Translations under genes and position numbers: made by a program
Shown here: piece by piece, positions 16,201 through 60,205 of the stretch
Layout of the letters: each line of letters starts with the position of its first letter
How positions within the stretch are numbered: position 1 is the first letter of the stretch
Notes under the pieces: model-generated
What the model saw: only the letters and a program-made list of their open reading frames with translations
What the model was told of the DNA's origin: nothing
The model's database searches: none
Source: Hexactinellida sp. DTS-2022
Lineage: Eukaryota; Porifera; Hexactinellida
Assembly (NCBI GenBank): GCA_028753945.1
Contig: JAPNXP010000014.1
Coordinates: 4,836,001 to 4,900,000 of the forward strand
Direction of reading: 5' to 3'
DNA length: 64,000 nt

Positions 16201-19200
16201 GTTTGGTTGAGTTTTAATCAAATCCATGATTGTCCATATCACAACACTTCTATTACAATAATAATGTATTACTATTCAGAGGGGACCCCAGAGCCATATC
16301 CATACGATGGACTCAATTATACTATCAACCAGGTGCATGGAGGGGAGTATTGGAATGCTAACTTTACAGGTAAGAATTATTTGTAGGTTTGTATTGTACG
16401 TAACTCTTTGTAATAATTTATTGATTATTGGTTTGTACAGTCTATATTCGGTTAATTCCTTTAAAAAGCTTAGCAAAGATTCCAGTTTTCCAGGAAAATA
16501 CTATAAGCTTTGATTCATGCTAATTTTATAATACACTATTTATTCACTGGATTTTATTAATACTGTCTTGCTTGGTGAGAAAAGGTGTTTTTCGATTTTT
16601 CTAAAATCTGTTGGAGCGATGTTCTCATAATAATCATGTTATGCAACATGTACAGTAGACTCTCGTTAATACGAACACCAGAGGACCTTCGAAACTTGTT
16701 CGTACTATTATCCGGAAATCGTCTAAACGGAGTCACTTGCATGCATTTGTATAGTCTAGGAGAATTAACCTTGTACTGTACTGCTTAACGATATTTCGCC
16801 TACCCATGTTCGTACTAACGGAGTCTACTGTGGTTTGATAATACAGTCAGGTTCTTTTATTATGAACATTCAAGGGACCAAAAATTGTGTTCATAATAGA
16901 GAGACTTCATAATAACCGAACTCAACTTAATGCAAACCCTATGTGAGTTGTTAAATTGGGACCATAGGCTTGTTCATAATAAAAAATCTTCACATTAAGC
17001 AGACGAAATATTGTTCATAATAAGCAGATATGACTGTATCACTATATAGTGAGCACCTTGCATTAGATATCGCCTGCAAGCACCTGTCATGCGGCTGTCA
17101 CAGCTGTCGCAGCAGCCCCGCCTGCACCTACTGCGTCATAACTCACAGCTGTTTGGAGGACACGGATACCAGTCCGCTGTCCGCTTGTCCCATTCAGATG
17201 AAGCAGTCTTGCTGTCCGAACGACTGTAACGGGTACTACTGCGATTCAAAGATAGACCTATGTCGGTGCCCACCCATGTTCGGGGGATTTGACTGCAATA
17301 CTTGTAAGCTCTCTATTTCATTAGGATACTCACTGTATTGATTATCTAATTCATATAGTAGAACTCTTGTTATATTGATTATCTAATTAATACAGTAGAA
17401 CTCTGTTATATTGATTATCTAATTAATACAGTATAACTCTTGTTAAATTGACTATCTAATTAATATAGTATAACTCTGTTAAATTGACTATCTAATTAAT
17501 ATAGTAGAACTCTGTTATATTGACTATCTAATTATTACAGTAGAACTCTGTTATATTGATTATCTAATTAATACAGTATAACTCTGTTATATTGATATCT
17601 AATTAATACAGTAGAACTCTGTTATATTGACTATCTAATTATTACAGTAGAACTCTGTTATATTGACTATCTAATTATTACAGTAGAACTCTGTTATATT
17701 GATTATCTAATTAATACAGTATAACTCTGTTATATTGATATCTAATTAATACAGTAGAACTCTGTTATATTGACTATCTAATTATTACAGTAGAACTCTG
17801 TTATATTGATTATCTAATTAATACAGTATAACTCTGTTATATTGATTATCTAATTAATACAGTAGAAATCGGTTATAACTTATTGGGTTAGTACGTAATA
17901 ATTTTTCTACCAAGTTTATAAAGCAGTATATACGTATTTCTATGTAGGGTAATTTCGGTTAGTACGTACATTCAGATAATACCTACTTATTTTTCCTGCC
18001 CGAGGGGTAATTACTTCCGAATTCTACTGTACTGTATAATGATATGATTTGCAATTTTAGTTCTGTTTAAATTCCTATTAATCTCGTGGCTAGGTTTCTG
18101 TAGATAATAACATCACTAACTTTACTAGGTAATATTAACAAAGTACTTTTTCACATATATCAAAATTTTACAGATTGCATTTCTTATTTCATAGAATAGT
18201 TATCTTTATTGTTGCTTTACTTAATGCTTGATATAGTATATTATTAAAAAATGCAAAATGACAAAATACTTTTCTTTCGTTTGTTTGTTAGTTTGTTTGA
18301 TCATTAGTTTGTTTGATCATTTAATCATTTAAGTAATATTATATTATTAATAAAAAGTCTGGATATTGGATAAGTTATTTTAGTTACTATTTATCATATT
18401 TGTGTTTAGTCCACTGGTGGGTAGTCCTAACTGCAGCCGCGTCGCTCGGAACTATAGTTACCTTCTTCGCCATTTGTGGAGTGTACAAGTGCTGGCAGAG
18501 ATCAATGCGCCACAAACTTAGAGACCTGAGGGACCACTTGGAAGAGGAACACAACTGCTATCTGGACAGAATACAGAATAGACAGGTGCCCCCCAGTCTC
18601 ATTATAGACTTCAAGGAGATTAGAATTAAGAGACAGTAAGTGTTGTTTGTTTGTTTGTTGTTTGTATGTTTGTTTGTTTGATGTATGTTTGTTTATTTGT
18701 TTGTTTGTTTGTTTGTTTGTTTGTTTGTTTGTTTGTTTGTTTGTTTGTTTGTTTGTTGTTTGTTTGTTTGTTGTTTGTTGTTTGTTTGTTTGTTTATTTG
18801 GTTATTTATTTGTTTGTTTGTTTGTTTGTTTGTTGTTTGTTTGTTTGTTTGTTTGTTTATTTGTTTGTTTGTTTGTTGTTTGTTGTTTGTTTGTTGTTTG
18901 TTTGTTTGTTTATTTGGTTATTTATTTGTTTGTTTGTTTGTTTGTTTGTTGTTTGTTGTTTGTTTGTTTGTTTATTTGGTTATTTATTTGTTTGTTTGTT
19001 TGTTTGTTTGTTGTTTGTTTGTTTGTTTGTTTATTTGTTTGTTTGTTTGTTTGTTTGTTTGTTTGTTTGTTGTTTGTTGTTTGTGTGTTTGTTTACTTTA
19101 TATATATTTATATACTACGTATATTTGTTATTTATTATTCCTCTGTAGAGTTGGTTGTGGTAGTTTCGGAGAGGTGTACGAGGGGAACTGGCGGAATTCA

Positions 19201-22200
19201 GTAGTGGCTGTTAAGAAGATTCGCATTCGCACTTCAGGACTCAGTCAGGAAGAAAAGGAAGAGTTCCAGCAGGAAGCAGCTATCATGAGGTACGTAGTTA
19301 TCCGAAAATGAGAACTGTGCTGTGTACTCAACTAACTTGTTGTCATTATGATAGAGATAGAACTACATCGAAACTGGTTTTCTTTTTCTAACCAATTCTT
19401 TACATGAAAATTAAGTAAGAAAATTCCGATAGTTAGAAAAACCCGATTGAAAATACAACAAATTTGGAATTTCTTACACATTTAGAATAAATAGTTTGTC
19501 AGAAAAAACCGGTTTCGACTGTACAGTAAACTCTCGGTAATACGAATACTAAGAGACAGTCGAATTTGTTCGTATTAACCGGAGTCACTTACATGAATTT
19601 GTATAAGATAGAATAATTAAACTTTGTACGCCTTAACCGTATTCGTAATTTCGTATTAACGAGAGTCCACTGTATTTGTATAAGCTAGGCTGCTAGGGGA
19701 ATAACCTTGTACTCCTTAACCGTGTTCGTATTAACGAGAGTCTACTGTATTGTTTAGCAAGCTCCTACATCCCAACATAGTCCTGTTGATGGGCGTATGC
19801 AGTGAGGAGCCTAACCTGTGTCTGATAACCGAGTACATGCAAATGGGATCTGTAAGGGAGATACTGGACGACAGGTCTATTGACCTAGACTGGGGAATGA
19901 CTATCATAATGGTAAGTCATACGCTTGTTCATTATCTCGTGTTAATTTATATACTCAGTTCTAAAATTAAATTAAGGGCAAACTTGTACCTTTCAATATA
20001 AAACCCGGTATCAGAAAGGTGAATCTTTGATGTACAAAATGACCTCGCCTCCATTGCCTGTAATTATATTGAAAAGGGGTTGGACGATATTTTTAGTAAT
20101 TCCTAGAATATTACTTGTATCTAGTAACATAATTTCTACATTAATTTCAGTTTAAATTAGATAAAGCCGTTCTTAATTATGAACTTCTGGCACAAATGGT
20201 GGAGTATCTTGCTATATTTATAAAATCTACTACCTAAGGTAATTCTTTAATCACAAGAATGCTAATTATATTATTCATGTAATTAATTAATTAACAAAAC
20301 TATTGATATTTTCTAGAAATAAAGCAATACAAATCTAATAATAGATCATGGAATATTTACATATTGTAAACGTATATTAAATGTGTAAAGTAATCGAATT
20401 ATGTATAAATGAAACTAAAAAGACTTGTAGCACTTGTTTCATTTATTCCGGTTATTTCCACTTCTTAACAGGCATTAGATGCAGCTCGTGGCATGACCTA
20501 TCTACACGGCGTGACGCCTCCAGTTATTCACAGAGACCTCAAGACTGCTAATCTACTGGTAGACCACAGTTGGAAGGTTAAAGTAGCAGATTTTGGTGTT
20601 GCCAAGATGATTAAAGATATTGACTATATGGTAACCGTGTTGAGTAACTCTCTGGTGAACATGCCCTCTCAAGAAGCCGCCACACAAGCGAATGAGTTAA
20701 ATGAGAATTGTACGATTTATAATATTTTCAATACGATTATAAGCCGATTGAATAAGAATAAATAATTTCGAATTAAAGCTTACCAATTATTTAATGAGTT
20801 TACTTATACAGCGATCATCGGCGTTTGTATTAAAAAACCTGGCTAGTTTCTAGCGATTGTTTTTTTATGTTTATAAAAACACCATCGCTGGTAACTACCA
20901 GGTTTTTAAAAACAAACGCCGATGATCGGTGCTACCGATGATCGCTGTATAAGTAAATTCTTATTTAATAATCACTCTAATTAAGGTAATTACCCCTGAA
21001 AGTAATCCTAACTCCTTTACACGCTAGGAGCTAACTTAGGAGGCCATTGATATTTACTCTAATTACCGTATAGGCGTACTATACACTAAGCAGTGAACTC
21101 TCAATAAGTATTATAAGTGTAAGGTAGTAACACTGTCGGTTCTCTGAGGTTTACATGTACCAGAGGGTCTGGATGCATTTGATCCTAATCATAGTCCAAT
21201 CCATAATCCATTTTGTTCAGAATTAATATTCCGTATTTCCAAATCCATATTCATCCGGCCCTCTGCGTGTATCAATTTTACAAAATACAGTCTACTCCAC
21301 TTAATAGATTAATAGAATCACCGGTTAATCGGTTTCTCTGCATAATCGGGTCAAAATTTCACAGGTTTTATAGGACATAATTACAGTTTGGCTCACAATA
21401 TTTTCGGTTAATCGGTTTCTCCGCTTTAATCGGGTCAAAACAACCTGGTCCTGAGGTGGCTCTATTAAGCGGAGTCGACTATAATTCAAATTTTACAAAT
21501 TAAGATTATTGAATACATCGTCCCTGCGTTGTGTTTGAGGTATCTGTCGCAATACGATCTAACCAGAGACCAGAGAGCTGTTATTACTATACCCTTCTCC
21601 TAGCCCCCCTGCTACACAGACAAGCTGAGCAGTACAACACAACCTGTGCCGGGTCTCTGAGATGGTGCGCTCCTGAATCCATGAAGCCGAAGCTAGCTGC
21701 CACTGTGTACGGACAGAAAGTTGATATATACTCCTATGGAGTCATTCTATGGGAACTAGCTACTAGGGAATGGCCCTATGCTGAGTTGAAGTTTGATTTT
21801 GAAGTAAGTATTTTCAATTATTTATTAATGAACGAAATAATAGCCATACTTGTGGTTTTCAGTAAAGCAAAGTTTATTTTAGAAAACTGGACTCTTATTT
21901 TCTACTATGATTCGGCAGCATGTATAGCCGTATTATATATATAGTAGTCCATGTATAGATCTATAAAATACAGTTTGAATAATAAAATTTAAAATTTAAA
22001 TATAATATTGTTAAAATTAAATTAAAATCACTACAAATGAAAAACCTGTGTATTTTTATCAACATCCTACAAGACCGTCCCAGTGCAGAGAGAGACTCCA
22101 GTCTCGCAGTTAAGGTATTCTCGGAGCTGAATTACCAACTGGAGCTGCACCAGGATGTGAGCAGCAGAGAGCTGGCATCGGTTCTGGAGAGAGCGCGCAG

Positions 22201-31027: not shown

Positions 31028-32188
31028 ATGGCAGCTTGCACCCAAGATATTTTCAAAGAAATAGAAGACTCTATTAACCTCACGTTTGATGAGTTGGTTG
31101 ATGCCGCCAATACAAGGAGAGAGGAATTACTCGATAAGCTGAAGAAACTTAAGTTAGACTATTTAGAAAAGGAACGTGTACGTATAGAGCAGTTACAAGA
31201 TTTAGAAAAGCTAATCGAACAACTTGATGCAACTCAAATAAAACATAAACTAAGTCAAAATCTTCAAAGTGATTTCGTATCCAATGCCAAGAGAGAAAAG
31301 AACAATTTCATTCAACCCACACTCGTTGCTATTCAAGGTTTTGTTACTGAAGAATTTGAGTTTATTAAAGATTTTTTAGAAATATATGGGGATATTCAAT
31401 TGGCCCCGTATTGTGATATAATAGTTCCCAAAGAATCATTTGGGAGAAAAGGAGTAAAACCAGGTCAACTGAGCGTCCCCTTGGGAATAGCATTTTCTAT
31501 TAATCGCATATTCGTTGTTGACATGATGAATCACAGAATTCAATTTTTTACCTCCAATGGTGAATTCAATGATAAATTTGGTTGGAAAGAGATTGAAAAG
31601 CCCCATGGAATAGCTATATACAATGATACCACTGCTTTCATCACTGACACGGGTAAAAACGTGTTACATCAATTCATCTTTGGACTAGAGACGTTTGTCT
31701 ATCATGGGGCTACAGAAGAAGGGTTACTTGACACACCGTTGGGTGTTGCGACTTTTGGAGGCTCAGCTTATGTGGCTGATAGTGGGAATAATAGAATCGT
31801 TGTATTCTCCACTTATGACCTATCTCTAGTTGAGGAAATCGGTATTGGTAAGCTGAACAACCCTCGTGACGTAACGGTATCAAACAACAAGGTATTTGCT
31901 ATCGACTACAGTGTACCATTCCATGTGCACGTGTTTCAACTTGATGGAACCTACTTGAATAGTATTATCAGCTTAAAAGGAGGAACTGGTACACTATTCA
32001 TGTGTATTGATGATTCTAATAATATTCTTATTAACGATGGTGCTGGCTCATGCATGCAAATATTCAATGAAAAAGGTTTGCTAATGCACTGTATCAATAT
32101 TAAATCTCCAGGTGGTATTGCTCTTTCAAATGATGGTGATGTTATTTGTGCTAGGAAATATGACAAAGAACAAATAGCGATCTACTAA
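31028..32188 (+). CDS. Coiled-coil plus NHL-repeat protein, tandem copy 1
   Basis: Intronless, 386 residues. The N-terminal coiled coil (about 1-115) has TRREELLDKLKKLKLDYLEK and RVRIEQLQDLEKLIEQLD. NHL propeller repeats from about 140 on include GVKPGQLSVPLGIAFSINR, FVVDMMNHRIQFF, EKPHGIAIYND, YVADSGNNRIVVFSTYD and LNNPRDVTVSNN. There is no RING or B-box, so the layout matches the gene at 24128 rather than a full TRIM-NHL ligase. Presumably cytosolic, binding protein or RNA through the propeller; that is family-level inference. It forms a head-to-tail pair with the next gene (offset 1,479 bp) and shares its promoter region with it. Confidence 0.88.
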   Translation: MAACTQDIFKEIEDSINLTFDELVDAANTRREELLDKLKKLKLDYLEKERVRIEQLQDLEKLIEQLDATQIKHKLSQNLQSDFVSNAKREKNNFIQPTLVAIQGFVTEEFEFIKDFLEIYGDIQLAPYCDIIVPKESFGRKGVKPGQLSVPLGIAFSINRIFVVDMMNHRIQFFTSNGEFNDKFGWKEIEKPHGIAIYNDTTAFITDTGKNVLHQFIFGLETFVYHGATEEGLLDTPLGVATFGGSAYVADSGNNRIVVFSTYDLSLVEEIGIGKLNNPRDVTVSNNKVFAIDYSVPFHVHVFQLDGTYLNSIISLKGGTGTLFMCIDDSNNILINDGAGSCMQIFNEKGLLMHCINIKSPGGIALSNDGDVICARKYDKEQIAIY

Positions 32189-32506: not shown

Positions 32507-33666
32507 ATGGCAACTTGCACCGAAGATATTTTCAAAGAAATAGAAAACTCTATTAACCTCACGTTTAATGAGTTTGTTGATGCCGCCAATACAAGGAGAG
32601 AGGAATTACTCGCTGAGCTGAAGAAACTTAAGTTCGACTATTTAGAAAAGGAACGTATACGTGTAGAGCAGTTACAAGATTTAGAAAAGCTAATCGAACA
32701 ACTTGATGGAACTCAAATAAAGCATGAACTAAGTCAAAATCTTCAAAGTGATTTCGTATCCAATGCCAAGAGAGAAAAGAACAATTTCATTCAACCCACA
32801 CTCGTTGCTATTCATGGTTTTGTTACTGAAGAATTTGAGTTTCTTAAAGGTTTTTTAAAAACAATGGGGATATTCAATTGGCCCCGTATTGTGATAAAAT
32901 AGCACCCAAAGAATCATTTGGGAGAAAAGGAGTAAAACCAGGTCAACTGAGCGTCCCCTTGGGAATAGCTTTTTCTATTAATCAAATATTCGTTGTTGAC
33001 ATGATGAATCACAGAATTCAGATTTTTAACTCCAATGGTGATTTCGAAGATAAATTTGGTTGGAAAGTGATTGAAAAGCCCCATGGAATAGCTATATACA
33101 ATGATATCATTGCTTTCATCACTGACACGGGTAAAAACGTGTTGCATCGATTCAACTTTGGACTAGAGACGTTTGTCTATCATGGGGCTACAGAAGAAGG
33201 GTTACTTAACACACCTTTGGGTGTTGCGGCTTGTGAAGGCTCAGCATACGTGGCTGATAGTGGGAATAATAGAATCGTTGTATTCTCCACTTGTGACCTA
33301 TCTCTAGTTGAGGAAATTGGTATTGGTAAGCTTAACAACCCCCGTGACGTAACGGTATCAAACAACAAGGTATTTGCTATCGACTACAGTGTACCATTCC
33401 ATGTGCACGTGTTTCAACTTGACGGAATCTACTTGAATAGTATTATCAGCTTAAAAGGAGGAACTGGTACACTATTCATGTGTATTGATGATTCTAATAA
33501 TATTCTTATTAACGATGGTGCTGGCTCATGCATGCAAATATTCAATGAAAAAGGTTTGCTAATGCACTGTATCAATATTAAATCTCCAGGTGGTATTGCT
33601 CTTTCAAATGGTGGTGATGTGATTTGTGCTAGGAAATATGACAAAGAACAAATAGCGATCTACTAA
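32507..33666 (+). pseudogene. Coiled-coil plus NHL-repeat protein, tandem copy 2, frameshifted
   Basis: Close paralog of the preceding gene. The frame runs from ATG 32507 to about 32857-32866, where TTAAAAACAATGGGG replaces TTAGAAATATATGGGG of copy 1, one base shorter. The frame then meets a stop at 32902, while the NHL part continues in another frame to 33666. Upstream and downstream of the break the two copies are highly similar, and the last 250 coding bases are nearly identical. It is either a recent pseudogene or an assembly error. The intact NHL frame could still be translated from an internal start. Described as broken; no joined protein is proposed. Confidence 0.8.
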
Positions 33667-36800: not shown

Positions 36801-36914
36801 ATCAAAGGTATGTCGATTCTGGCAAAGATTAACCTTGGTTCAGTTCATTTACTAGCAACTCTCCTCGACCCAAATGAATATGGAGAGGTTTATACGGAAA
36901 TAACTCATCAGTAA
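33870..36914 (+). CDS. TTI1: TTI1, TELO2-interacting protein 1
   Basis: Scaffold of the TELO2-TTI1-TTI2 (TTT) complex, which with R2TP/HSP90 matures PIKK kinases (mTOR, ATM, ATR, DNA-PK). Intronless, 1,014 residues from the ATG of MDRDEADAQFF (human 1,089). It is all alpha-helical HEAT-type. Recognisable TTI1 stretches: FRLLTGYLNLIGKTQ with TLTSVLEFDLSD, then the C-terminal ILEGLGHFAIALGSKFQPF, FPLLEKSNN and IHSNADYITNIISLQ, which align with EGIGQFAYALG, YPVLEKAGD and NQNSDYLVNGISLN of human TTI1. A Gln/Asn-rich low-complexity loop (MEEQQQQTPE) lies near residue 800. The start was chosen because the twelve codons upstream look untranslated. Confidence 0.88.
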   Translation: MDRDEADAQFFRVKLACQSYAGNPCPRSLKTILESVKVESRIHCLVASYLMYPICLHMKYSGFKIHENFAELAFRVLSQTLKRTNVTQFNTFLELYGTLCVHLDTESPVRKCKYNLSEEIKVEILSAIGYLFKATEHQIMRQFYSDTKYKNQLGFLIFLLFKELGIKQGNKIPFLVVNILMGLLNPVCQTRQIRYTPNKTLFNTSLHYDFLWSAVKKCTESYFIQKELIFFLPGVTSKLINFIISETNPSASLIAAAILTFANFIAYTCNNKFYKYILDNPSESPPPDPNIDDLQIELTKSWWEQTSVNLASLYVSVTQICIAHENFKTRLCLLESAAVLLANCQTSLSNLITALVDTLIVLSADSHPFVSNYATKIITTFSSLSCLNTFNPMLLRIEDLTYSLPNVVHNLKDTNKLPVFRLLTGYLNLIGKTQMKIGNSNIRMKECLKNLIKTLTSVLEFDLSDDSLLSQLVIQSDSQEMHFDKPKIVFTNLGDTSTKAVLDVLHAVGQFCVLDSILGYIFELAEKEKIRKELIFILNHLIVGSVKTQKIEAIIESVETIIPLYLQAEWIDDLDKGMYVLLRNTQFDEEANLPTILALKRRTMQQILILEGLGHFAIALGSKFQPFIVTTIFPLLEKSNNLNSYIQAQSFDSLRNICSALNYSSVQTLIHSNADYITNIISLQFFQECTSQSALDVLQAVFRNSTKQLLPLLEDSVNYLLKSIRFYHSNDESVILLPTLVVISDQLFKWQQDSSTDSNTNTDSVNATDKLIKEYREYLIFYFPQTKGNENTNAAPMEEQQQQTPEILEHTICIDIIDAISYYINFPTPRITGFAFKVLTNCLLALQTNMDKALPILHRIWQHLVSCIKTNVPVILIASLHCLTQISHHYGHFLISKVKKDIWLHLVDQLRILSVPNRGHGNYYLHTQDFKIQTTMLQCLPVIALEVKLRFPEFHQLLVVYHTYCSLSQPKILRDTAIKGMSILAKINLGSVHLLATLLDPNEYGEVYTEITHQ

Positions 36915-37480: not shown

Positions 37481-37545
37481 AAACTCTAAAAATCAGTAAA
37501 TAACACCATTAACATGTTTATGTTATTCACATCATAAGTGAGTCT
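37481..37545 (-). ncRNA. SECIS element of selenoprotein a
   Basis: Minus strand, 36 bp past the stop. Helix I AGACTC/GAGTTT. Quartet TGAT (37534-37531) opposite TGAT (37495-37492). An 11-bp helix II, GTGAATAACAT with GTGTTATTTAC, fully paired counting G-U. The 13-nt apical loop begins AAACATG with the required AA. All eukaryotic SECIS hallmarks are present. Confidence 0.9.
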
Positions 37546-37580
37546 CTATACCGCTTCTTCACTATCTCTCCTAGCTACTT

Positions 37581-38159
37581 CTATTTCAGTGTTGGTAGCA
37601 ACTTAAGCAGGTCACCAGAGGTAGGTCTATCATCCGGAGTCACACACCTGTGTAGATATAGGATCTTTCCTTCTCTGGTCATAATCAAATTCCCACCCAT
37701 TTGTTCCGGTAGATTTGCTTTCGGCAATACTGGGAGTGAATGGGCTTTAGCTGCCAGTGCTATAGCTCTGAAAATAGTCTTAGCTTTGAAAGTTGCCTTC
37801 GTCTTATACCCTAGCACGTTGTATGTACTGTTGTTTGAATCTAGGTACATTGGGAAGTTTGTATTTACTTCCTGCATCCACTGTATTGCTGTCTCACGAT
37901 CGTAGAAAGAGACAAGAACCACGTTGAGTTGGTCTAGTAGCGCTTGTGTACTGCCCAACTGTTGCACGTGGTCCTGTCAGAAAGGTCAGAGAGTGTAACG
38001 CAAGAATACAAACAATGTGTTCTTTGACTCGTCTTTTGCAGCGATATCAATAAGTGAGATGCTATCTCCACTCTCCAACTCGGATACTTTCGTGGGAGGG
38101 ACAGTATCTCCTACGATAAGAATGGGGGCTATTTCGCTAGTGGAATTCCCCTCTGCCAT
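37581..38159 (-). CDS. SelL-like diselenide selenoprotein a (UxxU)
   Basis: Thioredoxin-fold, peroxiredoxin-like protein of the SelL/SelU/PRXL2C (AAED1) group; a thiol/selenol redox role is inferred. It is 192 residues if TGA is decoded as Sec at codons 58 (37988-37986) and 61 (37979-37977). The N-terminus is MAEGNSTSEI, then VGDTVPP and the strand FVFLRYTL leading directly into U-P-F-U, at the position of the CxxC (CYIC) of human PRXL2C. After the TGAs the frame stays open and homologous for 132 codons: QDHVQQLG, LDQLNVVLVSFYDRETA, QMGGNLIMTREGKILYLHRC. The third base pattern and the three paralogs exclude a random broken frame. Intronless. A SECIS lies 36 bp downstream. Two Sec two residues apart allow an intramolecular diselenide. 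Confidence 0.92.
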
Positions 38160-38659
38160 TTCTAATACTTGTAACTTTAACTATCTCCTTGCAAAAAAAT
38201 TGAATCGATAGAATTAACGAAGGAGTATACTCTTATATATTTTACTCTCCTTGTACATATTTTATCTCCATTCATTATTTGCTGCTAATCTGTTAATTCC
38301 GATTAATTAATTAATGCGTTTCATTCCTACATTACATTCGTAAACTAATAACTGCAATAATGTAACAATTTTTATAATTATTGAAATTATTAATAGAATG
38401 TAATAGATATGGTAAAATCTTAATTAAAATATATTTGAGGAAAATAGACCATAGAAAGTAGAAATAGTATTCATCACATAATTATCGACGATATCGTACT
38501 ATTACACTCTACTTTGTAACCTACGACTGTGTCGCCTTTGTTTCATTGTCCTATCCAGAAAAAATACCGTTTTACCTTAAAAATCGCTCCCAAGATGGAA
38601 TTGATTTTTAAGTTTTCCCCAGATATTATTCGAAGAGAAAGTTTAGTTAAATGTAGATT

Positions 38660-38735
38660 GTGAATTCAGAGATCAACAAATAATACCAATAAATAATTGT
38701 TTCTATTATCTGCATCATTATAATGACTTCATATC
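38660..38735 (-). ncRNA. SECIS element of selenoprotein b
   Basis: Minus strand, downstream of the stop at 38746. TGAT (38717-38714), helix II GCAGATAATAG with TATTATTTGT (10 consecutive pairs with G-U), opposite TGAT (38675-38672). The apical loop starts AAACAATT. Helix I is weaker than in the other three. Confidence 0.87.
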
Positions 38736-38745
38736 TACATTCGTT

Positions 38746-39330
38746 CTATAATAATTTGGATAATAAATTCCTTAGCTCCTTAACTGTTGGCCTACTATTA
38801 CCTTTTTTCCCTTTGAATAAATATTCAATTTCCCATTTTTTATTCACAATAACATCACCTCCAGATTGTGAGTTATCGTCTCCTTTCTTTGGCTTTTGAA
38901 TTGTACCTCCTCTAACCACAGCTCTAAAATGCCAGAAAGTAGCTTCCCAACTGTGTTTCACAGATTTATCGAACCCGAATGCATGATAAACTGACATATC
39001 TAGGTCTTGGTAGAATGGAAAGTTTGTTTTATTTTGGCTGATCCAATACCTAGCTCTTTCATTATCGTAATTAGCGATTATAACAACATTTATTTGAGCT
39101 AGAATGAGCTGTACATTGGCTAGCTCTCTCACATGATATATTCACGGATTTCAATGCACATGTCGTAAGAATATGAAGAGAGTTCGATCCTTATCTCCTC
39201 GTAAAACAACGTTTGTTAAGGAAATATTTTCTCCACTCTCGACTTCTGTTAATTCTAGGGAATTAGGTATATAATCCCCACTTCTGAGAATAGTAGAGAT
39301 TTCGCTAAATACAGGAACCTTCTCTGCCAT
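38746..39330 (-). CDS. SelL-like diselenide selenoprotein b (UxxU)
   Basis: Paralog of the neighbouring genes; 194 residues with Sec at codons 60 (39153-39151) and 63 (39144-39142). Start MAEKVPVFSEI fits the MAE start of the paralogs. LFIFLRHVH runs into U-N-P-U, then IYHVRELANVQLILAQ, VVIIANYDNERARYWI, FPFYQDLDMSVYHAFGF and QSGGDVIVNKKWEIEYLFKG. The final segment carries the family pattern of Gly-Gly, the VNKKWEIEYLF strand and RPTVKELRNLL. This is the most divergent copy (Lys-rich, KSVKHSWEA), yet both TGAs are at the same alignment columns. Intronless; head-to-tail with copies a and c. Own SECIS at 38660-38735. Confidence 0.91.
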
Positions 39331-39576
39331 TTTGACTCAATAATTAATTATTTGAGAATATTGTAAGCATATATGTATTCTTATTTAGATTGCTTGTAAT
39401 TATACTATCTATTATGCTATCATATTTCAAGAAATATAAGATGTTATAGAAATTATGATCTGCTTAGGGTACCACAATCGTGACAACTAGATTAGAAAAC
39501 GAGTTTTTTAGATACACTGTTTAACGGGTCTTAGCTATTGATACCGGGGGATAAAATATTGACTACCAGGCTGCAG

Positions 39577-39755
39577 TTATTATACAGGCATTTGTAAATA
39601 CGCTCCTAATCCTGGTCTGATCCAATTTTCGTACGCCTAAATCACAAATTAATGTTACGGTATAGGAGAGAATTCCAAATTTTCGCGCTCCTAAAGTCAA
39701 ATTTTCCAAAAATAATGCTAAAAAAGGAGCGTCTCGCGCTCTTGGATAATTCCTT
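39577..39755. repeat. Dispersed repeat family L copy 2
   Basis: Matches 11143-11335 block by block (TTTGTAAATACGCTCC, CCTGGTCTGATCCAATTTTC, TCGCGCTCCTAA). Lies between selenoproteins b and c. Confidence 0.8.
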
Positions 39756-39837
39756 GCCAGGCTGTTTTCTGCTCACGATCACACTTTGTGATAGAATTTT
39801 AAGCGAGGGTATGGAGATGGGGAAATCTAACCGAACT

Positions 39838-39976
39838 ATAGTAGAACCTCGTTAGTACGATCATGGTTAATACGGACACTATATTTCAGTACCCTTCAAA
39901 GCCTTTTCAATACAAATTATATTGGTTAGTATGAATTTTGACGGTCCCATATGTTCGTACTAACGAGGTTCTACTG
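39838..39976. mobile_element. MITE family B copy
   Basis: Left TAGTAGAACCTCGTTAGTAC, right GTACTAACGAGGTTCTACTG then TA; core CAGTACCCTTCAAAGCCTTT. Confidence 0.8.
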
Positions 39977-40102
39977 TATATTGTTGTAATACTCTTTCCA
40001 GCGAGTAAACAACGTTTCAGGATGATTTGTTTACATTTAGTTATAATTATTCAGATTATTGCTACACTAATTTCTATTATTGAGAGAAATAATAATTGAA
40101 TT

Positions 40103-40168
40103 GACTCGAAAAATCTGCAAATAATACCAATTCTAGTTTGTTTCTACTATTCGCTTCATAAATGAGTC
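40103..40168 (-). ncRNA. SECIS element of selenoprotein c
   Basis: Minus strand. Helix I GACTC/GAGTC. ATGA (40159-40156) opposite AGAT (40116-40113). Helix II GCGAATAGTAG with TATTATTTGC (10 pairs). The apical loop begins AAACAAAC. Lies about 40 bp past the stop at 40205. Confidence 0.9.
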
Positions 40169-40204
40169 GTACATCAAGCTATCTCCCAATTGTTAGCCGA
40201 TATT

Positions 40205-40777
40205 TTAAGGTTTCATCTGCAACATCTCATCTACGGGCGGCCAATCATCAGGACTCTCGCTTTTATATAAATACACAATCTTTCCTTCTCTTGTTATAAT
40301 CAGCTCGCCTCCAGATTGAGTTGGAATGTCTCCTCGAGGTATTCTTGGTATAGTCCGAGTTCTAACAATATACGTTAACGTTCTGAATACTGTCTTAGGT
40401 TTACAATTGGATGTGCCCTTGTACTCGAGTAGCTTGTAAATACTGTAATCTGAGTCGGTATACATTTGAAAATTGGTATGGACATCTTGTATCCATTTCT
40501 TAGCAGTCGCACGGTCGTAGAATGAGACAAGAACTACGTTTAGTTGGTCTAATATTTGTTGATTATAGCCCAACTGTTTAACGTGTTCTTGGCAGAATAT
40601 TCAAAGGTGATGACGTAAGAATACAAAAAGTGTATTCTTTGAATCATCTGTTGAAGCAATCTCTCTGATCAATATTTTCTTTTCGCTCTCCATTTCCATT
40701 AGTGTCAGAGTTGACTCAAGAGAGTCTCCTACTTTCAAAACTGGGTCTGATGAGCTGCTGGATTTTCCCTCAGCCAT
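40205..40777 (-). CDS. SelL/SelU-like selenoprotein c (UxxC)
   Basis: 190 residues with one Sec at codon 59 (40603-40601). The motif is U-I-F-C, so the second Sec of the paralogs is a cysteine (Cys62) here. Start MAEGKSSSSSDPV by homology; an in-frame ATG at 40828 is also open. Order of parts: VGDSLEST, KNTLFVFLRHHL, UIFC, QEHVKQLG, LDQLNVVLVSFYDRATAKKW, YTDSDYSIYKLLEY, TQSGGELIITREGKIVYLYK. It is closest to copy a. Family-wise the UxxC form recalls SelU, while the UxxU neighbours recall SelL. Its own SECIS is at 40103-40168. It is divergent from copy d across 943 bp, suggesting separate or bidirectional promoters there. Confidence 0.91.
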
Positions 40778-41500
40778 TTGTAACAATGTCTTTTGAATAC
40801 CTGACCTATCACAAACTATCAATAGCACATAATAAGCGTACTAAATTTGTACAGATATTTGACCGAAGTTTATTGGAATAACACCTAGGATTTATTTATA
40901 TGCCCAATGTCGGCGAATTCTTTTTTTACATAATTTAAGCCATTGGAATGGTAAGTTTCTTTAATTAACACCTAAAATCACCTATTAGACATCCGGAGTC
41001 TGTTTTTGTTTTTTAATTCTCGCCAACAAGTGCAAGCAACGGCTGTTTCCATCTAAGTAAACTCTAAATTAATTGTCTAGTATTTCAACAATTTTCCAAG
41101 GAATTAATTAAAAAATTTCGTTTCGTTCGGTCATATGTTGGGTGTACTGATTCAAATGTTTACCTTGTATATTAATAATCTTCTTATTATACTCTTTTAA
41201 TATTCAGAGAACCATAAGAGCCGACTATTATAGTATAATATTAAAGTTTCACTTGACTGAACCATACACCGTGTCATACAATATTTTCCCATTTATCACT
41301 GCATGCCCAGCTAGCTACATTGTATAACAGCTGATCACCTATTCAGGCTATTCTATACAATGTATTTCACTCGACTGTGAATACACGCTTTCTTATAGAG
41401 CGATATTTGTCACAAATCAAACATAGAAAATATTCCATGATTCAAAATGTTAGGGATTTAGTTTAATTGCATATGTTATCTGCTCTCTTCAATATACTTA

Positions 41501-41688
41501 CAGTCAACTCCGCTTAATAGAGCCACCGGTTAATAGATTTCTCCGCTTAATCGGATCAAATAATCACAGGATTTATAGAACGGAATTACATTTTGGCTAA
41601 AATATTTTCGGTTATTAGATTTCTCCGCTTAATTAATCGGGTCAAAGTAACCTGGTCCCGAGGTGACTCTATTAAGCGGAGTCGACTG
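41501..41688. mobile_element. MITE family A copy immediately upstream of selenoprotein d
   Basis: CAGTCAACTCCGCTTAATAG at left, ATTAAGCGGAGTCGACTG at right, TA at 41499-41500 and 41689-41690. Ends 31 bp before the ATG at 41720, so it lies in its 5' UTR or promoter. Confidence 0.9.
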
Positions 41689-41719
41689 TACTTTATTTGC
41701 TAAACTCTATAATCATAGC

Positions 41720-42334
41720 ATGGCTGAGCGGGATCCTACTGGTCCTATATCGCTCAATCTAGGGGACACTCTACACCCCTCTCTTGTCGTATCAGATTAT
41801 AAGAACGGAGATAGGATATCATTGTTAGACATAGCTAAAAGGAGAGATGATGGAATTCCAATTGCTCGTGAGAGAACTTTATTTGTGCTTCTCAGACATT
41901 CCAATTGACTCCCATGAAAGCTCCACGTACAGGAGCTAGCTGGGGCACAGGAAGAACTGAATGGGCTCAGTATTGCACTCGTAGCTAATTATGATAGAGA
42001 AACAGCAGGTAACTGGCTGAATGAAGCAAACGTAGATTTTCCTATTTATCTCGATCAAACTTCGGCTGTGTATAGAGCCTTGGGTTTACCTGTCTCTTCT
42101 TTCAAAAGTTGGCATGTCTACACTTTATGGTGGTATCTGAAGAAAGCATACCAAGGACACACTATACAGTGGCCTAGGAGAGATGAAGAGGCGTCTCAAT
42201 TGGGTGGAGATTTTATTGTTGACTCAGAAGGGAATATTATATATCTCCATCGATGTGAGAGGCCAGAAGATAGACCTACTATTGGAGAGTTAGTCAATGC
42301 ATTATCTGAACATAATACGAAAAGTAAACTGTAA
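41720..42334 (+). CDS. SelL-like diselenide selenoprotein d (UxxU)
   Basis: 204 residues with Sec at codons 63 (41906-41908) and 66 (41915-41917). It is the only copy on the plus strand. Start MAERDPTGPISLNLGD. ERTLFVLLRHSN runs into U-L-P-U, then KLHVQELAGAQEELNGLSIA, LVANYDRETAGNWL, FPIYLDQTSAVYRALGL, QLGGDFIVDSEGNIIYLHRC and RPTIGELVNAL. The QLGG and DSEGNIIYLH stretches match the QQGG and GPGNNIHFIH region of PRXL2C. Compared with the others it has a few extra residues before the redox strand (RDDGIPIARE). Intronless. A textbook SECIS lies 19 bp after TAA. A MITE sits 31 bp before the ATG. Confidence 0.92.
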
Positions 42335-42352
42335 ATTTATTGGTAAGATTGG

Positions 42353-42412
42353 TTCTGAGTTTGATGTGGATAGTAGAAACCGTTTTGGTTATTATTTACT
42401 GACTTGTCAGAG
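42353..42412 (+). ncRNA. SECIS element of selenoprotein d
   Basis: Helix I TTCTGA/TCAGAG, a 3x3 internal loop, TGAT (42362-42365) opposite TGAC (42400-42403). An 11-bp helix II, GTGGATAGTAG with TTATTATTTAC, fully paired counting G-U. The 12-nt apical loop begins AAACCG; CC..GG could add a mini-stem (form II). Confidence 0.92.
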
Positions 42413-42450
42413 CTCAATTTTATTGTATATTTTTATATACGTATTTAATA

Positions 42451-42633
42451 CAGTAGAACCTCGTTAGTACGAACACAGTTGTTACGAATTACCGGTTAAT
42501 TGATATTAAGCACTATTTCAGTCCCCTTCGAAACATTTTCAATACAAATTATATTGGTTAATTTATACGAATTCCGGAAAAGGCGAAGGCATTTAGACGG
42601 TCCCTTTGTGTTCGTACTAACGAAGTTCTACTG
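42451..42633. mobile_element. MITE family B copy
   Basis: CAGTAGAACCTCGTTAGTAC at left, GTACTAACGAAGTTCTACTG at right, TA at 42449-42450 and 42634-42635. Confidence 0.88.
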
Positions 42634-42937
42634 TATTTATTCTTCTATTATTAATATCGATTTTAGACTATTAATTAATAGATTGGGATACGTAACTGTA
42701 ATAAATTGATTTGGTGTTTTTTTTTGGTCAAAAGTTTATTCATTACTCTTACCATATGGAAATCGAATTTTGCTTATGAAACCTGACTAAACGACTTAAA
42801 TATTCATATTATATTACTAATATTTCTGGCTAATTCCATATACCTATTCGCAATCAAACATAACACTGTTATCGTTACTAGATAGCGATTGTCTCTCAAA
42901 ACTCTAACTATATCATCAGATAATTCGCGTGCTTAAA

Positions 42938-45674: not shown

Positions 45675-47756
45675 CTAAGAAGATTCTGCTTCCCTTTCAA
45701 CAGCCATTCTTTCTTTCCGAACCGCGATCCTCAAATCTGGACTTGTGTATTCAAATCCCTCGAAAGCTTCATGCTGCATAAGAATACTATTACGACCTGC
45801 TGTTTGTGTAATTCTATTGGAAGACTGTGTGAATTCTTTGTCGAAATTCGCCATTGACTTTTTGTCCTTGATAACTGGCACGAAAGGCGGTTCCACTCCT
45901 TGTTTCCCTAACAGCTCCCAATCGATGTCTGCGAAAAATTTATTCGCTTGGAAGTTCTTCTGTCCATCAACTGGATCATATCCTAGTCTCTCTTTCGGGA
46001 TTTTCTTCAACAGAGCACCTATTAGCTTCTGAGCATCTTTCGAGAATGTGCTTGGGTAACTTGGAGTCCGGTTCTTTATATTTGCAATTACCATTTCTTC
46101 TGTACGTGCGTCGAATGGTGTTCTTCCGGCAATCATCTCATACAACACAGCACCCATGCTCCACATGTCAACTGAATTGTCGTATTCCTTTCGCTGTAGG
46201 ATTTCAGGAGCCATGTAATCAAGTGTACCACAGTAAGTCTTAGTACCCGACTTGCCATTCTTTATTCCTTCTTTGCAGAGACCGAAATCTGCAAGTTTTA
46301 CATGTCCTTGAGCGTTCAACAGAACATTATCTGGCTTCAGGTCTCGGTATATAATTTCTTTTGCGTGCAGAAAGAATATCCCAAGTGAAATCTCTGCTAT
46401 GTAAAACTTTGAACGTTCTTCGGTAAAACGATGATTTTTAAGGAGATGGAATAAAAGATCTCCTCCAGGGAGAAACTCCATCACCATGTAGAGATTCTCT
46501 TCATCTTGAAATGAAGTTTTGAGGGCAGTTAGGAAGGGTGGTTTGTTCTTATCTTCCAGGGCTAGAACGAGTTTCTCCATCATGGTGCAATCTGCTGCGT
46601 CGTATTCAAGCACAAGTTCTTTGTGCAAAACTTTTAGTGCAAACACATCATCCGTGTATTTACTCTCAGCCATAAATACTTTGCCGAACGCGCCTTTTCC
46701 AAGTACACCAAGCAGCTTGAACTGATCCAGTACCATCACATCTTCCACTGTCATACCAGGTATGTTTGATACAGCCAGACTGAGATTTAATGGAAGAGAC
46801 TTAGTCGGGGAGCTAAGACGAACAGTCTTGATCTGATCGATCAATCGTTTAATTTCTTCTTCATCCGATTCTACAACAGTCCTGGTGTTGAGATGCCTGC
46901 CAACTTGTTCACTGTAAAGAGTAAACCAGATGTCTTCTGGTTTTGTAAAGTTTGCCAACTCACTCATACCGAATGACATCCCGCCTAAAAATCGACCTGA
47001 AAAGTCCATCATTTCAATGTTCATTCTTTCGCATTTGGAAGGATTGAAAGGAATCACGAAACTCTCGTTGAACACAGGTGCCAGAGTACGTTCTTCCATC
47101 TCTGTTTTATGTGTGATTACCACTTTCCCTTTCTGGTCAACCATTGTCACTTGACAGTATGGATCTGACATTCCATCTCCGTCACTTGGTAGCAGATTTT
47201 TTGCTTGCTTTATGTCAATAACTATTACTGGATTCCTGTCATTCATCTCATTGAATCTGATGTTCATTTGTAGTCGCCCGTACTTTTCAACACAATGCGT
47301 CCCACATAGGTTAGCAACGAACGGTTTGCAATAGGAATGCACATTGATGCCACAATCTGCGTCGCTGCATTGATAACCTTGTCTGAACAGCCCATATAGC
47401 ATCTGGCCACAGTGGTCACAGTATGTGAATCTGCTGTACGAATGTACTTGGAAGTCGTGCACCTTCCCCTCGCTTTTCTTCAATATTTGAATTCCTTTGG
47501 CGCTCTTTGGGCAATTGAATGCTACTAGATCCACGCAATGTCGATGCAACACGTAACCACATTGGAGACATTGGAATCCCTGCTTTCCTAATCCGTATAT
47601 GAAGGTCCTACAATGCGAACAGTATGTTGGTTGTTTGAAGAAATGCTGTTCAAATGTATGATCCTTCATTACTACTCGCTTTTTCTCGCGTATTGCTCTT
47701 CTACGCGCTATGTCTCTGTGACAAGTTTCATCTTTCTCATCCACTGAGCTGGCCAT
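45675..47756 (-). CDS. Protein kinase C, conventional layout, paralog 1
   Basis: Ser/Thr kinase for diacylglycerol/Ca signalling. Intronless, 693 residues. An N-terminal pseudosubstrate-like basic stretch (RRRAIREKKRV) precedes C1A (HTFEQHFFKQPTYCSHC) and C1B (HSYSRFTYCDHCGQMLYG), both with full HxnC zinc ligands. The C2 domain (about 160-275) has DGMSDPYCQV. Kinase: LGKGAFGKVF, FALKVL, YRDLKPDN, DFGLCKEG, activation loop TYCGTLDYMAPE. The hydrophobic motif is FEGFEYTSP, with Glu where conventional PKCs carry a phosphorylated Ser. In C2 loop 3 the family's WDWD..D pattern reads MMDFSGRFLGG, so two Ca-ligand Asp and some residues are missing. Membrane response may therefore be Ca-independent. 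Domain order is that of cPKC alpha/beta/gamma. Confidence 0.95.
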   Translation of the reverse strand: MASSVDEKDETCHRDIARRRAIREKKRVVMKDHTFEQHFFKQPTYCSHCRTFIYGLGKQGFQCLQCGYVLHRHCVDLVAFNCPKSAKGIQILKKSEGKVHDFQVHSYSRFTYCDHCGQMLYGLFRQGYQCSDADCGINVHSYCKPFVANLCGTHCVEKYGRLQMNIRFNEMNDRNPVIVIDIKQAKNLLPSDGDGMSDPYCQVTMVDQKGKVVITHKTEMEERTLAPVFNESFVIPFNPSKCERMNIEMMDFSGRFLGGMSFGMSELANFTKPEDIWFTLYSEQVGRHLNTRTVVESDEEEIKRLIDQIKTVRLSSPTKSLPLNLSLAVSNIPGMTVEDVMVLDQFKLLGVLGKGAFGKVFMAESKYTDDVFALKVLHKELVLEYDAADCTMMEKLVLALEDKNKPPFLTALKTSFQDEENLYMVMEFLPGGDLLFHLLKNHRFTEERSKFYIAEISLGIFFLHAKEIIYRDLKPDNVLLNAQGHVKLADFGLCKEGIKNGKSGTKTYCGTLDYMAPEILQRKEYDNSVDMWSMGAVLYEMIAGRTPFDARTEEMVIANIKNRTPSYPSTFSKDAQKLIGALLKKIPKERLGYDPVDGQKNFQANKFFADIDWELLGKQGVEPPFVPVIKDKKSMANFDKEFTQSSNRITQTAGRNSILMQHEAFEGFEYTSPDLRIAVRKERMAVEREAESS

Positions 47757-58168: not shown

Positions 58169-60205
58169 TTATTTTAGAATTTCCTCCGAAGTGAATTCGA
58201 ATCCATTAAACATCTCTTGGTCTATCACAAGAATGTTAGCTGGATTTATTCTAGTTATTTTAGTCGAGGCTCTGGTGTATTCTCTGTCGAAATATAAATC
58301 TGATTTCCTGCTTGTAACTTTCGGTACAAAACTTGGTTGTAACTCCCGCTTTTCAGCTTTAATCCAATCAAAGTTGGAGAAAAACCCGTGTGCTCTAAAC
58401 CCCGTCTCGCCTAGCTTGGTATCAACTCCCAATCTCTCAGCTGGGTTCTTCTTTAACAGCTGGGAAACAAGGTCGATTGATGGTTTGCTAAGGAAGGGAG
58501 GAAAAGTTGGGTTTCTGGTTAGTAGATTCTGCATAATAACTTCGTCAGTTCGGCCGTAGAACGGAGGGCGACCCACTAACATTTCGTAGAAAAGCGCGCC
58601 CATACTCCAGATATCAACAGCTGTGTCATACGGCTTCCTGGCTACGATTTCGGGCGCCATATAATCGAGTGTTCCGCAGAATGACGTGGTGCTAGATTTC
58701 GCGTGGTAAATCCCTTCTTTGCAGAGGCCGAAATCGGCGAGTTTAACATGTCCCTCTATGTCTAGCAGTACGTTATCCGGTTTTAGATCTCTGAATACGA
58801 TTCCCTGGCGGTGTAGATAAAACAATCCGAACGAAATTTCTGCTAAATAAAGCCTACTTCTTGGCTCGGGGAAATTAGTGTTTTGAATCAAGTGGAACAG
58901 TAGATCTCCTCCACAGAGGAACTCCATGACAATGTACACATTCTCTTCGTCTTGAAACGAAGCCTTTAAGCATGTCATAAACGAAGGCTTTTCGTCCATA
59001 CAGAGAATTCGCTGTTCTATCATAATACAGTCAACTGCATCATACTCGAATATTAGATCTTTGTGCATTATTTTCATTGCGAAAATCTTTTCTGGTTTCC
59101 TCTTGTATTCCACCATTATAACTTTACCGAACGCGCCTCTGCCCAACAGTTCTATTCGCTCGAAATCATCCACACTCAACGCGTTAATGAGCGAATACGA
59201 ATCCTTTCTTCGGTTTCTCGCTTTCTCAAATCGCGATCTGTTCTTTTCGCGAATAGTTTCGTACTCTTTCATAATGCGCTCTTTCTCTCCTTCGTCTGCC
59301 TCTGAGAGACTTCTCTGGTTCATAAAGTTAGCCGAAGTAGGGTTGATTAGCGCGAACCAAATATCCTCACCTTTCTCCAACCTCTTCAACTCATCAATAC
59401 TGAACGACATACCACCAATGTTGTCGCTTTTGAATGCATTGTCGTAATCCCACATCCATATTTCCAAACGTCCGTCAATAGAAGGATTAAATGGAATCTC
59501 AAAACTCTCATCAAATGTAGGATTTAGAGTTTTTTTATGAATTTTAGTTTGGTGTTTGATGATGGTTTTACCTTTGGCGTCTTTTAGTTTTATTTTACAA
59601 TAGGGATCTGATAAACCATTTGAATCGGCTGCCATTAAATTTTTTCCGTTTTTTATGTCAACATAGATGCTGCCTTTCTTTTCTGTATCCATGTGACAGA
59701 GAATATTCAACAATAGTTGACCGTATTTCTCATTACTGGCTGTTCCACACAAGTTAGCAACGAATTCGCGGCAATAAGAATGCACATTCATACCACATAC
59801 CTTACCCTGGCATTGGAAACCCTGTCTGTACAAACCGTACAGCATCTGACCACAATGATCGCAAAAAGTGAACTTTGAGTAAGTCGCGATTTTAAAATCA
59901 TGTCGCTTTACGTCAGGACGCTCGGCTACCATTTCAAACTTTGGGCATTTGAAGGCAACCAAATCTACACAATGTTTGTGTATTGCATAGCTACAGCGTA
60001 GGCAGTGGAATCCTTGTTTTCCCAGTCCGTAAATGAACTGGTGGCAATGTGCACAGTAGGTTGGCTGTTTGAAGAAATGCAGCTCGAATAAATGGTTCCT
60101 TATCTGGACACGCTTCTTCTCACGCACAGCAATATGCTTTTGCCGTCTGTCGATAAATCCTGACTCATCTGGGAAAGAACTAACTTTTGCTAACTTTTCA
60201 GCCAT
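58169..60205 (-). CDS. Protein kinase C, conventional layout, paralog 2
   Basis: Intronless, 678 residues, the same order as paralog 1. Basic pseudosubstrate-like stretch RRQKHIAVREKKRVQIR; C1A HLFELHFFKQPTYCAHCHQF; C1B YSKFTFCDHCGQMLYGLYRQ. C2 has SNGLSDPYCKI and loop 3 with WMWDYDNAFKSDNIGG, so the Ca-ligand Asp residues are kept, unlike paralog 1. Kinase: LLGRGAFGKVIM, FAMKIM, FRDLKPDNVL, DFGLCKEG, activation loop SFCGTLDYMAPE. The tail hydrophobic motif FNGFEFTSEE again has Glu at the phosphosite. Typical Ca/DAG-activated PKC with an atypical-PKC-like hydrophobic motif. Similar length, shared N-terminal MASS/MAEK plus REKKRV suggest an old duplication; the two lie 10.4 kb apart with four genes between. 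Confidence 0.95.
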   Translation of the reverse strand: MAEKLAKVSSFPDESGFIDRRQKHIAVREKKRVQIRNHLFELHFFKQPTYCAHCHQFIYGLGKQGFHCLRCSYAIHKHCVDLVAFKCPKFEMVAERPDVKRHDFKIATYSKFTFCDHCGQMLYGLYRQGFQCQGKVCGMNVHSYCREFVANLCGTASNEKYGQLLLNILCHMDTEKKGSIYVDIKNGKNLMAADSNGLSDPYCKIKLKDAKGKTIIKHQTKIHKKTLNPTFDESFEIPFNPSIDGRLEIWMWDYDNAFKSDNIGGMSFSIDELKRLEKGEDIWFALINPTSANFMNQRSLSEADEGEKERIMKEYETIREKNRSRFEKARNRRKDSYSLINALSVDDFERIELLGRGAFGKVIMVEYKRKPEKIFAMKIMHKDLIFEYDAVDCIMIEQRILCMDEKPSFMTCLKASFQDEENVYIVMEFLCGGDLLFHLIQNTNFPEPRSRLYLAEISFGLFYLHRQGIVFRDLKPDNVLLDIEGHVKLADFGLCKEGIYHAKSSTTSFCGTLDYMAPEIVARKPYDTAVDIWSMGALFYEMLVGRPPFYGRTDEVIMQNLLTRNPTFPPFLSKPSIDLVSQLLKKNPAERLGVDTKLGETGFRAHGFFSNFDWIKAEKRELQPSFVPKVTSRKSDLYFDREYTRASTKITRINPANILVIDQEMFNGFEFTSEEILK

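Follow-up and report, generated by a model that had tools for sequence, protein, structure and literature searches.

What is one to make of four neighbouring genes that a standard reading would each split into two frames, at TGA codons confined to a redox motif? The question is raised by a stretch of 64,000 nucleotides (the window, always meaning the whole of it) from the sponge Hexactinellida sp. DTS-2022 (Porifera; Hexactinellida; assembly GCA_028753945.1, contig JAPNXP010000014.1, positions 4,836,001 to 4,900,000 of the forward strand), in which four homologous single-frame genes, here called A to D, are clustered at 37581-42334, all within 5 kb. In what follows I will argue, from sequence, that A to D are, very probably, genuine selenoprotein genes of the SelL type that arose by duplication at this locus, and that these four animal genes are with high probability read by way of selenocysteine insertion sequence (SECIS) elements, SBP2, eEFSec and Sec-tRNA(Sec), Sec being selenocysteine. 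SelL belongs to the small number of proteins whose active site contains two selenocysteines.

With TGA read as Sec (U), gene A (37581-38159, minus strand) would encode 192 residues with the motif U-P-F-U, its TGAs standing for Sec58 (37986-37988) and Sec61 (37977-37979); gene B (38746-39330, minus) 194 residues with U-N-P-U, from TGAs for Sec60 (39151-39153) and Sec63 (39142-39144); gene C (40205-40777, minus) 190 residues with U-I-F-C, where the first motif place is a TGA for Sec59 (40601-40603) and the second a TGC for Cys62; and gene D (41720-42334, plus strand) 204 residues with U-L-P-U, from TGAs for Sec63 (41906-41908) and Sec66 (41915-41917). All four gene models draw on the open frame, homology and profile matches, and that of A also on a structure model. 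A first-pass annotation, made from the letters alone, had given these coordinates, strands, four motifs and seven TGAs, and all were found correct when the frames were read again. The seven in-frame TGAs occupy two columns of the redox motif and no other in-frame stop occurs before the frames end, at TAG in A and B and at TAA in C and D; all four proteins begin with MAE, A and C are 52% identical, and the other reported pairs share 32-42%.

Does the sequence beyond the TGAs behave as coding sequence? The frames had been described as remaining open and homologous for about 130 codons after the motif, and they indeed run for 131-138 codons without a stop, with homology upstream as well as downstream of it; the probability that as many random codons of the window's composition contain no stop is about 2-3e-4 per gene. 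Between A and C, the Nei-Gojobori nonsynonymous and synonymous rates are dN 0.334 and dS 2.04 after the motif (dN/dS about 0.16) and dN 0.36 and dS 1.37 before it, and in the other five pairs the synonymous proportion pS, at 0.61-0.86, is saturated or nearly so. In every one of the six pairs the nonsynonymous proportion pN is lower than pS both before and after the motif, and downstream of it the third codon position is the one that differs most. By these counts the codons downstream of the TGAs are under purifying selection, and since a truncated product would let the downstream part drift, constraint there speaks for full-length reading.

The second line of evidence lies in the 3' flanks. 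A hairpin with SECIS hallmarks had been proposed 20-50 bp past each stop, and candidate cores do lie behind all four genes. They start 47 (A), 29 (B), 47 (C) and 28 nt (D) past the stop, at a distance of 427-456 nt from the TGAs, and are all built of TGA-N, a helix of 11 positions, AAA and, to close, N-GA-N. The element of A (37482-37544, minus; core 37492-37534) scores 41.9 bits against the Rfam model SECIS_1 (RF00031), which is independent of my custom pattern and has a cut-off of 35 bits, and that of C (40103-40168, minus; core 40113-40158) scores 34.3 bits, missing the cut-off by 0.7 bit; both are also supported by the pattern scan and by folding. The core of D (42362-42403, plus) was identified by the pattern scan, by a minimum-energy fold with a z of -3.87 and by pairing, and that of B (38672-38717, minus), the weakest of the four, by the pattern scan and pairing. 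Folded alone, the elements of A, C and D adopt the SECIS shape at minimum energy. Over the four aligned rows, with a mean column identity of 79%, the helix is 95.5% paired and three pairs have changed on both sides, and shifting the helix partners by 1-3 columns cuts pairing to 32-73%. Scanning both strands of the window with the pattern gave seven matches, four of them the elements of A to D, where simulated first-order sequence gave nine per 1.28 Mb, or about 0.9 expected per 128 kb; since the pattern was composed after the sequences of A to D had been inspected, these four set against that expectation are a description and not a blind test.

Selenocysteine insertion further requires dedicated machinery, and the three components that the first-pass annotation wanted checked in this genome, tRNA-Sec, SBP2 and EEFSEC, are all present. 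One of five tRNA-Sec matches is over the cut-off, at 75.8 bits and with the anticodon TCA (read by eye); the eEFSec domain scores 124 bits within a frame of 580 residues; and a 722-residue frame matches PDB entry 7zjw_B (SECIS binding protein 2) at 5.6e-39, a comparison made with the longer of two SBP2 copies. These copies (L029 and L030) lie about 3.6 kb apart near 2.21 Mb of the contig designated C8 and have near-identical RNA-binding regions. SepSecS is represented by a match of 426 bits, PSTK by a PSTK-like gene, and SPS2 by four profile pieces and one frame with KLKGUGCKV, which I take to be the SPS2 active site, with its TGA at that site.

To which family do the proteins belong? Searching with the TGA-readthrough frames, as had been proposed, gave a match over the cut-off to Pfam AhpC-TSA_2 in four of four, and NCBIfam NF040769 (SelL_rel_redox) was the best NCBIfam match in four of four, with E-values for A to D of 1.2e-24, 1.8e-24, 2.2e-25 and 4.9e-33. 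A genome search with AhpC-TSA_2 gave at least eight places, namely A to D, a fifth copy E on contig C4 (motif UHPU, with a provisional N-terminus), two SelU-like genes and one gene read as Prx6-like; such copy counts are lower bounds, leaving at least five SelL-type copies, with UxxU in A, B, D and E and UxxC in C. The SelU-like genes, L151 and L155, carry RRPGUxxC with one in-frame TGA each. In a 50-row tree with 45 bacterial Sec-type relatives (the best 45 of 160-225 residues and E < 1e-6), A to E form one group (100/100) within which A and C pair (100/96) and B is the most diverged of A to D; the order of B, D and E, the last on a long branch, is not settled there, B, C and E are flagged for odd letter composition, and a separate test of A to D as a clade apart from E gave no decision (approximately unbiased test, p 0.411). 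A 23-row tree, in which 16 rows are bacterial and the SelU-like sequences come from this genome only, again groups A to E (100/100) and places the SelU-like pair elsewhere (100/100) on a long branch, and membership of A to D in SelU/PRXL2 was rejected on these grounds. The AlphaFold model, built for A from 44 sequences (its alignment took 39 of the 45 bacterial tree rows), has a pLDDT of 89.8, a pTM of 0.86 and a thioredoxin-like fold in which Sec58 and Sec61 lie where the active-site helix (59-70) begins; in a Foldseek search of the PDB its best match was human prostamide/PGF synthase (9usa, by title a C44/C47 protein), followed by peroxiredoxins and ResA. Of the families named in the original assignment (SelL/SelU/PRXL2C fold), SelL is retained, on the profile, the trees and the predicted fold of A, and SelU/PRXL2, which branches separately, is given up.

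Not all of the evidence points this way, and the following observations have to be counted on the other side. Rfam SECIS_1 gives no match for B or D, with E-values up to 5, and when the element of B is folded alone its SECIS shape is not the minimum-energy fold. Column shuffles of the alignment reached the real covariation score in 19 of 500 trials, the count of pairs with both partners changed in 73 of 500 and the number of pair types in 399 of 500; support from SECIS pairing against column shuffles is modest. As a control, the pattern scan was applied to three further Sec genes of this genome, SPS2 and the SelU-like pair, and gave no SECIS downstream of any of them (0 of 3), either since it misses real elements or since their SECIS lie outside the examined stretch, and silence of the scan consequently means little. 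All five copies, at 86.3-116.2 bits, stay below the 120 bits that NF040769 has as its curated cut-off, as do two of the five bacterial Sec relatives that were scanned; all four SPS2 pieces fall under the SelD cut-off, and a PSTK-like gene, at 106 bits, falls under its own. At the other loci, Rfam has no SECIS match at SPS2 or copy E and one weak match (20 bits, E 4) in the right place behind one of the SelU-like genes; a covariance model made from the four elements of A to D recovers its four training sequences and yields nothing useful at the E, SPS2 or SelU-like loci; and the SECIS candidate of copy E, with 9 of 11 positions paired, comes from the pattern scan alone.

Could the TGAs then simply be stops, so that A to D are dying copies or encode short N-terminal peptides? 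The two frames per gene of a standard reading would fit, as would the state of B, the most diverged gene with the weakest SECIS, and B alone could be decaying; as an account of all four I consider it very improbable, given that pN stays below pS and third positions diverge most after the motif in six of six pairs, that the frames contain no other stop, that SECIS cores lie behind all four and that the machinery is present. It is harder still to believe that this genome uses TGA as a sense codon for some other residue, or that it is edited: that readthrough yields open frames is what such a code would give, but TGA is found only in the two motif columns of A to D, the SBP2 frame ends in TGA, as does one of the 14 long frames of the window, the bacterial relatives have TGA or Cys at the same places, and both SECIS elements and a tRNA-Sec are at hand. 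Scarcely any weight, likewise, can be given to bacterial contamination of the assembly, which single-frame genes and a close profile match to bacterial proteins might bring to mind, when the cluster sits in a contig of 5.37 Mb (the genome has 112.4 Mb in 18 contigs) between a TTI1 frame ending at 36914 and a signal peptide peptidase frame starting at 42929, when the SECIS elements are of eukaryotic type, when a 100/100 branch separates A to E from all 45 bacterial rows, and when the genome is rich in long single frames, those of SBP2 and eEFSec being examples.

A far more serious contender concerns the name rather than the nature of the genes, namely that A to D belong to the sponge 'AphC.like' family of a 2012 survey (PMC3473315) and not to SelL proper, with E as the true SelL. 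In the excerpts that served as source for this and the other papers cited here, the survey describes AphC.like proteins as thioredoxin-like, Sec-containing and multi-copy, with two tandem genes and a single SelL in the same genome, to which the four clustered genes and one distant copy E would form a parallel. On the other hand, A to E form one group against the bacterial relatives (100/100), the SelL-related profile scores of A to D are as expected of kin, the AphC.like genes have two or five coding exons, and the survey, as excerpted, gives no motif for AphC.like and names SelL and SelW, not AphC.like, as the families with several Sec (PMC3473315). By its description, the AphC.like family may be that of A to D, and I would regard the identification as plausible while leaning against it.

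If A to D are SelL-type selenoprotein genes, as preferred here, the steps of their expression can be sketched. A single SECIS would be present in the predicted 3' UTR (untranslated region) of each mRNA; SBP2 would bind it and bring eEFSec with Sec-tRNA(Sec), and the redox motif's UGA or pair of UGAs would then be read as selenocysteine. Standard eukaryotic Sec insertion is well supported by this gene anatomy, and transcription, Sec insertion, bond formation and a substrate are presumed along with it. The predicted products are small thioredoxin-fold, peroxiredoxin-like oxidoreductases whose active-site helix opens with the U-x-x-U or U-x-x-C pair, a thiol/selenol oxidoreductase role being assigned because of fold and motif. 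The reduced state of the pair would be two selenols in A, B and D, alternating with an internal diselenide; C would instead alternate between a selenol-thiol form and a selenenylsulfide. In each, the first Sec would attack and the second motif residue resolve.

How did C come by its cysteine? A pattern scan for bacterial relatives gave at least 118 loci; as the pattern called for TGA in the first place and F or Y in the third, UxPU and CxxC forms fall outside its sample. Among the matches listed, 104 of 118 are Sec-type homologues sharing the active site, all 104 of them UxxC, and the 14 dropped for want of a BLASTP match to A to E at E < 1e-3 include all four UxxU-looking rows. Six of the bacterial SelL-like Sec-type frames (L038, L040, L081, L084, L119 and L134) are longer, at 441-549 residues, and appear to have additional sequence at the C-terminus. 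A query with D of prokaryote and viral contig collections, where animal relatives are not expected, gave no confirmed relative. No fewer than two changes at the second motif place are needed to explain the 50-row tree and, with A and C as sisters, these fit one gain of Sec on the stem of A to E and one loss in C; UxxC as the ancestral state of C is disfavoured. Most simply, then, copy C would have changed from UxxU to UxxC, in a reconstruction based on the bacterial rows and on A to E as the only animal SelL-type rows. It is tempting to go further and view the cluster as a diselenide redox battery whose duplicates are tuned through the resolving residue, C by the one base change from TGA to TGC, a proposal whose chances I put at slightly under even.

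Should that proposal be true, A and C would make a natural matched pair for the role of the second selenium; in any case one genome contains both sisters, distinguished by the second motif residue, and so offers natural relatives with which to test the cost or gain of that selenium. The cluster also illustrates selenoprotein genes duplicating together with their SECIS elements, and adds four to the genes that would be split by routine annotation.

The surroundings contain other features. Around C and D lie three short MITE-like elements (miniature inverted-repeat transposable elements), a pair of one type and a single one of a second type, all bounded by terminal inverted repeats, at 39837-39978, 41499-41690 and 42447-42638; one of them ends about 30 bp before the start codon of D, and they may have had a part in rearrangement. 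The gene content is that of an animal, as indicated by a caspase, the signal peptide peptidase and two kinases (45675-47756 and 58169-60205) with the C1-C1-C2-kinase order of conventional protein kinase C, each in one frame of about 680 codons. Near-identical adjacent frames at 31028-32188 and 32878-33666, of NHL/beta-propeller type as judged by eye, apparently reflect a recent tandem duplication, and a low-complexity repeat at 18647-19311 translates to long runs of F, V, C and L.

How much of this is new? Insertion of two Sec with one SECIS is established for SelL (PMC3316567), a diselenide has been reported for the family (PMC2398784, PMC2397514, PMC3316567), and diselenides are described as having very low redox potentials, with the suggestion that aquatic organisms may possess systems reducing them (PMC2397514). 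A marine metagenomic Prx-like group includes UxxU (PMC2398784), and a review gives both UxxC and UxxU for the prokaryotic Prx-like group (PMC13188914). The first-pass annotation had thought an array of four with a UxxC variant unusual, which holds to the extent that the open papers listed by the searches, as excerpted and with the variants of Shchedrina 2007 outside the comparison, gave no report of a four-gene SelL array or of an animal SelL with UxxC, and does not hold for the ingredients, as UxxU, UxxC and a tandem pair of Sec-containing AhpC-like sponge genes are all published (PMC2397514, PMC13188914, PMC3473315).

Compared with the SelL of fish, invertebrates and marine bacteria, A to D share the peroxiredoxin-like character and, apart from the UxxC of copy C, two Sec three places apart served by one SECIS, but there are at least five copies here, four within 5 kb, where the 2012 survey gives one SelL each for Amphimedon, Trichoplax, Nematostella, Capitella and amphioxus and none for Lottia (PMC3473315). 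The sponge AphC.like proteins of Amphimedon, Oscarella and Suberites, a sponge-only family with three selenoproteins in Amphimedon, two of them in tandem, resemble A to D in their thioredoxin-like, Sec-containing and multi-copy nature and differ in having several coding exons instead of one open frame, a comparison made by description only (PMC3473315). The bacterial NF040769 or Prx-like thiol:disulfide oxidoreductases have the same active site and family profile, yet the homologous matches listed are UxxC throughout, whereas A, B, D and E are UxxU; and SelU/PRXL2, including prostamide/PGF synthase, shares the fold (by the model of A) and Pfam AhpC-TSA_2 but forms a separate branch, the two SelU-like genes of this genome having RRPGUxxC with one Sec. 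The kind of protein and its mechanism are thus already known, and what is new is the copy number, the clustering and the UxxC copy, by which a known family is enlarged and none founded.

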